A stretch of 64,000 nt of DNA from Psychrobacter sp. PL19 (lineage in GTDB: Bacteria > Pseudomonadota > Gammaproteobacteria > Pseudomonadales > Moraxellaceae): positions 372,001 to 436,000 of the forward strand of contig NZ_JAGING010000001.1 of NCBI RefSeq assembly GCF_017875835.1, in the 5' to 3' direction. Each line of letters begins with the position of its first letter. Within the stretch, counting starts at the first letter, position 1. A program made the position numbers and the translations under genes. Shown one piece after another: positions 21,334-28,243 of this stretch. The notes beneath the pieces are model-generated. The model had not been told where the DNA came from. It made no database searches and saw nothing but the letters and a program-made list of their open reading frames with translations.

Positions 21334-21774
21334 TATAATTACTCCTTCTTACTACGGGCATGCCGTACTTGATAAATAGCGGTAGTGTTAGCGACAAAAA
21401 CAGCACTTAGCAAGCCCCCATTCACTCAAAGCCTTTAATTCTTACGCAAGCATTTGCAATATTTACAACTTATTAACGCCGAAGACATCTGTTATCAAGT
21501 TTGGCACCTTAATATACGAATGTAAGAAATTATTTCAAGAAATCGGCTAACAATAAAGCTAATGACTCTGATTTTTGGTATTAGACCAGCCCTAAATATT
21601 TATTTTGATAGGCAATTTCTGTACGAACGCTATTTAGTGGCTGCTCGTTTTTGATAAGAGTCATATCAAAAAATATTCTTAGATAAGTTGTTTACCACCA
21701 TTATCAGAGCAAAAAAATAACGTTAAGAAAAACATATAAACAGTAAGCTACCAAATACTATGAGAGATTACATC
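21334..21774. other. Divergent intergenic region
   Basis: This AT-rich non-coding sequence lies between the ZIP gene and the PepSY-like lipoprotein gene. No metal-regulator operator was recognised by eye. Confidence 0.55.
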
Positions 21775-22503
21775 ATGAAATTTTTACAACCTTCAACACT
21801 CAATACAGCAATAGCTACTGGACTTGCAGCAGCTTTATTGCTCACTACAGCCGGTTGTACCACTGTGGCCTCAGGCTACGACAACCAGCCTACATATGGC
21901 GGTGGTGACTATAGAGATAACAATTATCGTGACAATAATTATCGTGACAATAATTATCGTGATAGTAATTATCGTGATAGTAATTTTGGTCGTATCACCC
22001 AACAGCTACGCCAAGATTTACGCCGTAAGGGCTATCAGGTGATGGATATAAAACCTGATAATTACCGTGGTAACCAAGCTGTTACGGTATATGCTAAAAA
22101 GAACAATCAACCCTATGAGCTGAAATATAGTTATCCTGGGCTAAAGCTCATAAGTTCGAACAAAAAAGACTGGTCGAACGTTTGGCAAGACAACAAGCAT
22201 AATAATGGCAATGACTATTACGATAACGGCAAATATAAAAACAACGGTAAACATAAAAATAATAATAAACGTTATAAGAACGATGATGTTGAAGACAATA
22301 TTAAAAGAGAAGCGCGTTACCCTGCCGTTAAGCAGCGGGCAATTAATAAGGTTCAAGGGATGGGTTATCGGGTCAAAGATATTGAGCTTGAGGAAAAGAA
22401 TAATCGTGGTATCTTTGAAATTGAAGCCAAACGCGGCTCACAAGACTACGAGATCACCCTAGGCTATCCCAACCTAAACGTGATTAAAATTGAAAAAGAT
22501 TAA
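21775..22503 (+). CDS. PepSY-like lipoprotein with NYRD repeats
   Basis: This 242-residue predicted lipoprotein has a signal peptide ending in lipobox TTAGC (C28). A five-unit repeat of D-N-N-Y-R (about 46-70) follows. Two PepSY-like modules come next: one at about 73-126 (RRKGYQVMDIKPDNYRGNQA) and one at about 190-242 (NKVQGMGYRVKDIELEEKNN). A Lys/Asn-rich linker joins them. PepSY-like domains often inhibit proteases or act as periplasmic chaperones; the role here is unknown. I chose the ATG at 21775 because it opens the signal peptide and follows GAGAGATTACATC. A degenerate paralogue lies directly downstream. Confidence 0.8.
   Translation: MKFLQPSTLNTAIATGLAAALLLTTAGCTTVASGYDNQPTYGGGDYRDNNYRDNNYRDNNYRDSNYRDSNFGRITQQLRQDLRRKGYQVMDIKPDNYRGNQAVTVYAKKNNQPYELKYSYPGLKLISSNKKDWSNVWQDNKHNNGNDYYDNGKYKNNGKHKNNNKRYKNDDVEDNIKREARYPAVKQRAINKVQGMGYRVKDIELEEKNNRGIFEIEAKRGSQDYEITLGYPNLNVIKIEKD
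21910..21984. repeat. 15-bp tandem repeat (x5) in the lipoprotein gene
   Basis: Five in-frame units of TATCGTGACAATAAT type encode the YRDNN repeats just after the lipid anchor. Copy-number change would lengthen or shorten the tether without a frameshift. Confidence 0.9.
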
Positions 22504-26047: not shown

Positions 26048-26764
26048 TTAGCTTAATGGCACACCAATACGTTTGGCCACTTCTTCATAACCTTCAATAA
26101 CGTCCCCTAATGACTGGCGGAAACGGTCTTTATCTAATTTTTTCTTAGTGTTCTTGTCCCAAATACGGCAGCCATCTGGGGAGAACTCATCACCTAAAAC
26201 GATACGGTCATGAAAGACGCCAAATTCTAGTTTGAAATCTACTAACATTAAATCACCAGCATCAAACAACTTTTTAAGTACCTCATTAACTCGATAGGTC
26301 AGCTCTTCCATTTTTGCTAGCTGCTCTTCTGTTGCCCAGTCTAAGGTTACTGCTAGCGATTCATTAACCATCGGATCGCCGAGTGCATCGTCTTTATAAA
26401 ATAGCTCAAAGGTCGGCGGTGTTAGCACTTGGCCTTCTTCTAATCCCAAACGGCGTACCAGGCTACCAGCAGCAAAATTACGTACCACACACTCAACCGG
26501 AATCATCTCTAGACGTTTGACTAATACTTCATCGGCAGACAATTGCTTTTCGAAATGGGTTTCAATACCCGCTTCCGCTAGTTTTTGCATAATAAAAGTG
26601 TTGAAGCGGTTATTAACCACACCCTTACGTGCTAGTTGCTCGATACGCTGGCCATCAAGAGCTGAGGTATCATCACGGAAGTGTAAAATCAAAAAATCGT
26701 TGTTATCAGTTTCGTAGACAGATTTAGCTTTGCCTTTATATAGCAATTGTTGCTTTTGCATCAT
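26048..26764 (-). CDS. purC: Phosphoribosylaminoimidazole-succinocarboxamide synthase
   Basis: PurC joins CAIR and aspartate to give SAICAR in purine biosynthesis. The 238-residue protein has [14 protein letters not shown] (about 7-20), [10 protein letters not shown] (about 30-39), the [23 protein letters not shown] substrate loop, and DFKLEFG plus [13 protein letters not shown] near the C-terminus, all hallmark SAICAR synthase motifs. It follows dapA and the BamC-like gene on the same strand, the conserved gammaproteobacterial order dapA-bamC-purC. Two adjacent ATGs are available; AGGAACTCCC precedes them. Confidence 0.96.
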
Positions 26765-26923: not shown

Positions 26924-27247
26924 TTATTCAGAAGAGGCCGTAGTCACAGTAACGGAGCGCTCAGGCTTAGGCAGTTGGTACTGTTTGCCCGACTCGTTTT
27001 CTAGTGTCAGCGTATTTGCGCCCGTATTAGGCGTGGGATATAAAGGTACGAATGGTGCTGTCTCTTGCGCAGCAGGTAGCTGTAAAGGGTCAAGCTTTTT
27101 GCTCTCTTGATACTCCAAGCTGCCATTATCCCGCTTACCAATCAAGCTTTTTGCAGTTTGACAGCCGCTCAATACGACAGTGCTACCTAACACTAAGGTA
27201 AATATGACGGTAAGCAGTTTTGGGGTGGTTAATGATGTCTTCATCAT
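26924..27247 (-). CDS. bamC: Short BamC-like outer membrane lipoprotein
   Basis: This 107-residue lipoprotein has a signal peptide with lipobox LSGC (C29). Its position between dapA and purC is that of bamC (nlpB/dapX). The mature part (NGSLEYQESKKLDPLQLP, then a Pro-rich segment, then GKQYQLPKPERSV) resembles only the N-terminal unstructured region of BamC, which in E. coli lassoes around BamD. The two helix-grip domains are absent. I chose the tandem ATGs at 27247/27244, preceded by CTGAGAG; a longer frame would need a TTG at 27268. The symbol rests mainly on synteny and the lipoprotein/lasso pattern. Confidence 0.6.
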   Translation of the reverse strand: MMKTSLTTPKLLTVIFTLVLGSTVVLSGCQTAKSLIGKRDNGSLEYQESKKLDPLQLPAAQETAPFVPLYPTPNTGANTLTLENESGKQYQLPKPERSVTVTTASSE

Positions 27248-27337: not shown

Positions 27338-28243
27338 TTATAGTAAATTTGCCCGTACCAAAGCGTTATCAATGGTCGCATGATGCTCTTCAGCCAACCA
27401 TACTAACGGCAAACGAATACCAGTATCTATCATACCCATTTTATGTAGTGCGTATTTGGTAGGGATAGGACTAGAATCAATAAATAGGTCGCGATGTAGG
27501 TGCTTGATGACATCATGTATATTATTAGCAGCGGTAAAATCACCACGTAGTGCGGCTGTAAAGGTCTCACTCATCGCTTTTGGGGCAACATTAGCAGTGA
27601 CAGAAATATTACCTTTAGCGCCTACTTTCATTAAATCAAGCGCGGTACCATCATCACCTGATAACACCACCATTCTACTACCCACCGCTTTGATTAATTG
27701 TTCACCGCGAGCGACAGAGCCGGTTGCATCTTTGATCGCAACAATATTATCAATATCCGCTAGGCGTTCAACGGTCGCTTGAGCAATATCAACTACGGTA
27801 CGTCCTGGTACATTATAGAGCATTTGTGGCATATCAACTGCAGCCGCAATGGCTTTATAATGTTGATACAAACCTTCTTGGGGCGGCTTATTATAATAAG
27901 GGGCTACTAATAATGCGCAGTCCGCACCAGCCTCTTTGGCGTCTTGAGTCAACTTGATTGCTTCAGTAGTATTATTGGCACCCGTCCCCGCAATTACGGG
28001 TACACGACCTTTGACATGCTTAACAAAATAGCGAATGACATCGCTGTGCTCTTGCATGGACAAGGTCGCCGATTCACCAGTAGTACCAACGGCGACTAGG
28101 CAATGGGTACCCTGTTCGATTTGCCAATCTATGAGATCTGCCAGATGTTTATAGTCGACTGTGCCGTCAGGATGCATGGGCGTTACTAACGCTACCATTG
28201 AGCCTTGTAGTTGGATTTTGATGTCGTCGTATGCTGTACTCAT
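27338..28243 (-). CDS. dapA: 4-hydroxy-tetrahydrodipicolinate synthase
   Basis: DapA condenses pyruvate with aspartate semialdehyde in the lysine/diaminopimelate pathway. The 301-residue TIM barrel has GTTGES (53-58), the catalytic Tyr in MLYNVPGRT (Y143) and the Schiff-base Lys in VAIKDATG (K171). Length is typical. AAGGCAGGGTT precedes the ATG. It heads the dapA-bamC-purC block. Confidence 0.96.
   Translation of the reverse strand: MSTAYDDIKIQLQGSMVALVTPMHPDGTVDYKHLADLIDWQIEQGTHCLVAVGTTGESATLSMQEHSDVIRYFVKHVKGRVPVIAGTGANNTTEAIKLTQDAKEAGADCALLVAPYYNKPPQEGLYQHYKAIAAAVDMPQMLYNVPGRTVVDIAQATVERLADIDNIVAIKDATGSVARGEQLIKAVGSRMVVLSGDDGTALDLMKVGAKGNISVTANVAPKAMSETFTAALRGDFTAANNIHDVIKHLHRDLFIDSSPIPTKYALHKMGMIDTGIRLPLVWLAEEHHATIDNALVRANLL

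Follow-up and report, generated by a model that had tools for sequence, protein, structure and literature searches.

BamC (NlpB; Pfam family PF06804) of Escherichia coli and most beta- and gamma-proteobacteria is a lipoprotein whose gene lies beside dapA and which carries an N-terminal lasso sequence and two helix-grip domains, the latter being mobile and often unresolved. According to the respective papers, the lasso of E. coli BamC (residues 32–85 in the compared structures) makes extensive contact with BamD (PMC5056442), the BamC N-terminus is packed on BamD at an interface that persists in bilayers (PMC9540533), and the lasso sits in the presumed substrate pocket of BamD (PMC4890855). It is further reported that the C-terminal helix-grip domain of E. 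coli BamC moves with the chaperone SurA (PMC11970506), that bamC is dispensable in E. coli, with little phenotype upon its loss (PMC13067283), and that BamC has been termed the most mysterious BAM subunit (PMC13067283, PMC11130730). Helix-grip motifs are reported by Anwari 2012 (PMC3359395) to be conserved across beta- and gamma-proteobacterial BamCs. The same paper describes BamF, a BAM lipoprotein found in alpha-proteobacteria only, which resembles BamC solely in a short disordered motif at its N-terminus, has an extra region with its own predicted secondary structure and was judged to be of independent origin. No description of a lasso-only or single-domain BamC was found in searches of an open-licence literature library.

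The locus described here lies in Psychrobacter sp. PL19, in a stretch of 64,000 nucleotides (hereafter the window) that corresponds to bases 372001–436000 of a single-contig, 3.12-Mb genome. Its gene at 26924–27247 resembles that of BamC in encoding a lipoprotein with a homologous lasso and in its position beside dapA, but the product lacks both helix-grip domains and has 79 mature residues as against 319–446 in 11 full-length relatives. With the single-domain BamC found in Acinetobacter and elsewhere in the family it shares the lasso, the slot and the missing N-terminal helix-grip domain. It differs from BamF in its BamC descent within bamC's own slot, a distinction drawn from the published description of BamF and not from its sequences.

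Results

A short lipoprotein gene in the dapA-purC slot

The initial annotation had placed a 107-aa lipoprotein in the dapA-purC slot normally held by BamC, and this is borne out by the open reading frame, by its lipobox and by the occupation of the same slot in 133 loci. The features of the locus are as follows.

26924..27247, minus strand: lasso-only BamC gene, 107 aa (ATG start, 107 codons and a stop codon at 26924–26926)
27164..27247, minus strand: signal peptide, residues 1–28 (hydrophobic stretch and lipobox LSGC, assigned by eye from the sequence)
27161..27163, minus strand: Cys29 of the lipobox, the presumed lipidated residue
26963..27130, minus strand: lasso segment, residues 40–95 (DNGSLEY...LPKP), a homologue of the N-terminal part of BamC that binds BamD (hhalign, profile searches, purifying selection)
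26927..26962, minus strand: variable 12-residue tail behind the last lasso motif, weakly constrained (dN/dS)
27338..28243, minus strand: dapA, the upstream neighbour that defines the slot
26048..26764, minus strand: purC, the downstream neighbour that defines the slot

The product of this gene (P0001) has a lipobox, VVLSGC, that ends in Cys29 and leaves a mature part of 79 aa. The G-C of the lipobox is invariant in 8/8 uncut lasso-only proteins; rows of the later lasso-only alignments were trimmed to start at the lipobox Cys, the invariance of which is there by construction. Judged from the sequence letters, the gene thus carries the predicted lipoprotein signal of a BamC, and it stands beside dapA and purC as bamC does; the N-terminal lasso sequence of BamC is recognised in it by profile comparison (see below). 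Its nearest named relatives are found in Psychrobacter, with some in Moraxella.

A purine-rich GAGAGA lies a few bases 5' of the double ATG of the gene. Terminator-like sites were found neither in the dapA-lasso gap nor in the lasso-purC gap, those on the minus strand falling inside dapA, and co-transcription of dapA, the lasso gene and purC is therefore plausible. One promoter-like site (26907–26878) was detected in the lasso-purC gap, although such sites occur at chance level (8 found versus 7.1 expected). No RNA element was identified in the slot at Rfam gathering scores, and PADLOC returned no match. Elsewhere in the window (21760–22503), a predicted 247-aa lipoprotein containing consecutive repeats of the NNYRDNNYRDN type was observed.

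Descent from BamC

That the window protein is a reduced BamC, descended from bamC, is well supported by profile searches. A profile built from the lassos of nine single-domain relatives, which had been chosen by PF06804, mainly through the C-terminal domain, and hence independently of any likeness to the window gene, identified that gene as the sole significant match among the 571 window frames of at least 40 codons each (E=2e-15, or 3.5e-13 when scaled to 100,000 frames; next match E=2). Similarly, a second profile was built from the lassos of 11 full-length BamCs, which represent 11 other families of the order and all match PF06804 (E 1.8e-33 to 1.5e-18). Run over the complete genome, it gave the window gene as its only match at E<=10 (E=1.3e-6). 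This E-value is flattered, because a weak similarity to P0001 had led to these 11 proteins in the first place, a fault from which the value of 2e-15 is free. The full-length set derives from 25 genomes of other families in which P0001 had a match at E<=1, and from which 14 were taken, mostly for their best E-values and long frames; dapA lay beside the match in 13 of these loci but not in L080, L068 gave no protein and L081 proved single-domain, leaving 11. It is informative in its own right that a search started from P0001 arrived at dapA-adjacent proteins which turned out to be BamC.

The likeness to the N-terminal segment of BamC that the initial annotation had perceived was further supported by hhalign, with which the lasso-only sequences were aligned to the full-length lassos at a probability of 97.3 and to the single-domain lassos of the family's own BamCs at 98.9. 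In a set of 40 non-redundant lasso-only mature sequences, ten match PF06804 (E<=1, best 6.2e-5) and no other Pfam family is matched at E<=1; in genome G165, positions 1–63 of the PF06804 model match the lasso gene at E=1.7e-4. P0001 by itself is matched by no BamC model of Pfam or NCBIfam, and so does not reach the Pfam cut-off, and none of the 40 relatives has a BamC match in NCBIfam. The absence of similarity to BamC in profile searches, which the initial annotation had named as a finding that would speak against it, thus holds for P0001 alone and does not hold for ten of its 40 relatives or for the two lasso profiles. Among PDB chains, the only one under E=1 was a chain of BamC, 9pxg_C, in which the N-terminus of BamC is the aligned part and the E-values are weak (0.015 with P0001 including its signal peptide, 0.048 with the mature profile); since the mature profile still matches this chain, the signal peptide is excluded as the cause.

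Lasso-only, single-domain and full-length BamC have a conserved pattern in common, in which a Tyr is followed by Pro turns and these by a late Pro. Twelve residues are invariant in the 40 lasso-only sequences, which come from three genera (one of the twelve, Cys1, by construction), and certain residues, such as Phe38 and Tyr42 in mature numbering, are invariant within the lasso-only clade only. The failure of P0001 alone to match BamC in Pfam or NCBIfam would suit a small unrelated lipoprotein that had come to occupy the slot and whose likeness to BamC is coincidental, but this explanation is refuted in practice by both lasso profiles, by the hhalign probabilities, by the PF06804 matches in the ten relatives and by the gradation that leads, within this one slot, through single-domain forms (see below), and may be regarded as barely credible.

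Absence of the helix-grip domains

AlphaFold2 modelling of the mature part (79 aa), with an alignment that included 40 relatives, yielded a pTM of 0.24 and a mean pLDDT of 66.0, in a model without any helix of at least four residues or strand of at least three residues. Such a model is as expected for a peptide that would become ordered only on a partner. Additionally, a PF06804 search of the whole genome gave zero matches at E<=10, with a positive E. coli control. The initial annotation was therefore correct in stating that both globular domains are missing from the product, and the full-length bamC elsewhere in the genome that would have contradicted it was not encountered in this search. 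As the gene is of BamC descent and its product lacks the two helix-grip domains that characterise BamC, it is classed as a lasso-only derivative and not as a canonical BamC.

Separate genes for the globular domains, for which the initial annotation had proposed a check, were sought with a profile of the C-terminal (helix-grip) domain. This profile found its target in 3/3 control genomes at E<=3.6e-34, and in 22 lasso-clade genomes (21 without G192, which looks unreadable; see below) it found nothing below E=0.028. Matches at E<=10 occurred in four of the 22, the best (E=0.028) in the window's own genome, where it is partial and falls in a 548-aa Asn-rich protein that is not lipoprotein-like; a further match in this genome is also partial (E=0.425, in a 207-aa frame). 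A separate helix-grip gene was, by this search, not convincingly found in the genome. A split BamC, with its globular domains encoded by another gene and acting together with the lasso, would draw little from these two partial matches, and with no PF06804 match in the genome and a C-domain profile that performs as described on its controls it is highly improbable.

A loss of the downstream domains through a frameshift or an annotation error was likewise rejected: 159 bp separate the lasso stop codon from purC here, the dapA-purC gaps of the 133 lasso-only loci measure 331–694 bp with the lasso gene included, and the C-domain profile gave no convincing match.

Distribution and stepwise domain loss

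The gene order dapA-slot-purC was conserved in 60/60 loci first examined, some of which come from the same genome. A lasso-only protein occupies the slot of 133 loci (92 different gene sequences), with purC present on all 133 pieces; locus L039 was an artefact and was dropped from this set. The encoded proteins have 90–124 residues, with a mature part of 69–87, and in most Moraxella forms the chain stops a few residues past the last lasso motif (LPxP). By genus, the lasso gene was detected in 105/105 genomes of Psychrobacter (g1), 6/6 of g55 (Moraxella atlantae and M. boevrei) and 21/22 of g58 (named after one Moraxella MAG), in frames of 92–170 codons where listed (G204 matched, but its frame was not listed). 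The sole g58 genome without a match, G192, has zero PurC and zero BamD candidates too and was for this reason set aside, as it looks unreadable rather than gene-less. This distribution is not a matter of chance, and the lasso-only state is not peculiar to Psychrobacter sp. PL19 but clade-wide, a point that the initial annotation had missed.

When 199 genomes of the family were searched with PF06804, 85 gave a match at E<=10 and 28 were above the cut-off, none of the latter from g1, g55, g58 or g63; a match in G223 was spurious, lying in a region without dapA, and the lasso gene of that genome sits elsewhere. The best-matching stretches in the 28 genomes lie within positions 192–318 of the model, which belong to its C-terminal part, many with a weaker N-terminal piece in addition. 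Alignment of single-domain with full-length BamC showed the former to match the lasso and the C-terminal helix-grip domain of the latter, the N-terminal helix-grip domain being skipped. This form is found in 12/16 genera of the family (g50–g54, g56, g57, g59–g61, g63 and g64, from a reading of the slots that left out g62), and full-length BamC is the form seen in other families of the order. The slot frames of g63 are of about 198–205 aa, and the DapA of this genus matches 3pud at 624 bits; g63 is here named Acinetobacter on the basis of this entry, which we take to be from Acinetobacter baumannii.

The lasso-only state is apparently the second, single step of domain loss, common to the whole Psychrobacter/Moraxella clade. 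In a DapA+PurC tree of 48 hand-picked loci, the 23 lasso-only rows are separated from all others by a single branch (support 100/100, present in 100% of bootstrap trees); they are nested within the family's single-domain rows, and these in turn within the full-length rows; the single-domain labels of L040, L047, L049, L052 and L056 were taken from the PF06804 search and slot reading and not from an extracted protein, and L064, with a distant PurC, has a very long branch. The lasso-only state of Psychrobacter and Moraxella has, on this phylogeny, one origin. Locus L081 (genome G131, from another family) also encodes a single-domain BamC with the C-terminal helix-grip domain only, with a dapA-purC spacing of about 1.5 kb; as its position in the tree is apart from the window's family, a full-length locus lying between them (support 97/77), the single-domain rows taken together do not form one group, and the N-terminal helix-grip domain may have been lost twice, independently.

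A Moraxella-type dapA-lasso-purC locus of 45% G+C was also observed in the public record BMPS01000004.1 (L132), titled Streptomyces cinereus JCM 3040. Its counterpart, G183, falls in the window's family, and the Streptomyces record looks mislabelled or contaminated.

Selection on the lasso

Median dN/dS was estimated for the 30 best-scoring Psychrobacter loci of the P0001 search, pairs with dS outside 0.05–2 being dropped; with a mean pS of 0.71 in the lasso, synonymous sites are close to saturated and the values accordingly approximate. The lasso gave 0.068 (170/435 pairs usable), the signal peptide 0.191 (330 pairs) and the tail 0.525 (239 pairs), and in 29 of the loci dapA gave 0.040 and purC 0.037, the lasso value being about 1.7 times these two. 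By these estimates the lasso is under purifying selection, less tight than that on two enzymes of essential pathways, and constraint falls behind the last motif.

It might be supposed that bamC is dying in this clade and that the lasso is simply the part not yet lost, given the stepwise domain loss in the family, the reported dispensability of bamC in E. coli (PMC13067283) and a lasso dN/dS above those of its two neighbours. However, the value of 0.068, the retention of the gene in 105/105, 6/6 and 21/22 genomes and the 12 invariant residues across three genera (Cys1 by construction) largely refute a decaying relic, which is considered very unlikely. The low dN/dS of the lasso compared with that of the tail argues instead for a maintained minimal BamC.

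BAM partners and proposed role

BamA, BamB, BamD and BamE are present in the window's genome. Its BamD has as best PDB match 9pxg_D (1.4e-43), from the same complex as the BamC chain 9pxg_C. This BamD (L076:692–1732, in the region of G000:C1:2475748–2476368) extends about 85 residues past the part that aligns with the solved 9pxg_D; a link between the long C-terminal part and the lasso-only state was considered and rejected, long BamDs being found also in Acinetobacter and other genera and short ones in others. Two BamE-family lipoproteins, both above the Pfam cut-off, are encoded (G000:C1:217813–218049 and 2322600–2322791), and a second Omp85-type match (G000:C1:2685986–2686987, in a 1144-aa frame) lies below the BamA cut-off and is possibly TamA-like, but long.

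We propose that the gene is a descendant of bamC in the dapA-bamC-purC place whose product is reduced to a lipid anchor and a lasso and lies across BamD as in E. coli, a reading to which we assign a probability of about 0.78. By analogy with E. coli, the mature protein would be held by its anchor in the inner leaflet of the outer membrane, its lasso running as an extended chain over the BamD TPR repeats and through the pocket used by E. coli BamC. It could thereby steady BamD in the BamA-D-E module and/or screen the BamD substrate pocket. The role of the C-terminal helix-grip domain in E. coli, moving with SurA, would in the lasso-only clade be either dispensable or taken over by something else. 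As E. coli loses BamC with little phenotype, even a BamD-binding lasso may do little.

The predicted binding to BamD is transferred from E. coli structures, and a lasso of BamC descent might now serve another partner, such as a different outer-membrane complex or a BamE-like lipoprotein. The analogy on which BamD binding rests here, the two BamE-family lipoproteins of the genome and the invariant residues of the clade's own (e.g. Phe38 and Tyr42) leave some room for this, but the Tyr/Pro pattern is common to full-length and single-domain BamC and the genome has a BamD with ordinary matches to solved BamDs, so that we consider a change of partner unlikely.

Implications of a lasso-only BamC

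The proposed reduction of BamC to an anchored lasso bears on how the family is described and detected. The lasso-only clade contradicts the helix-grip conservation across beta- and gamma-proteobacterial BamCs that PMC3359395 reports, and it shows why a domain profile would score such a genome as lacking BamC. Furthermore, the series of two domains, one and none provides a contrast for testing the SurA-BamC coupling described for E. coli (PMC11970506), and the lasso-only protein is a ready-made minimal BamC construct. A clade that keeps the lasso alone under selection shows which part of BamC is worth keeping, and suggests that what really counts in BamC is its N-terminal tail.
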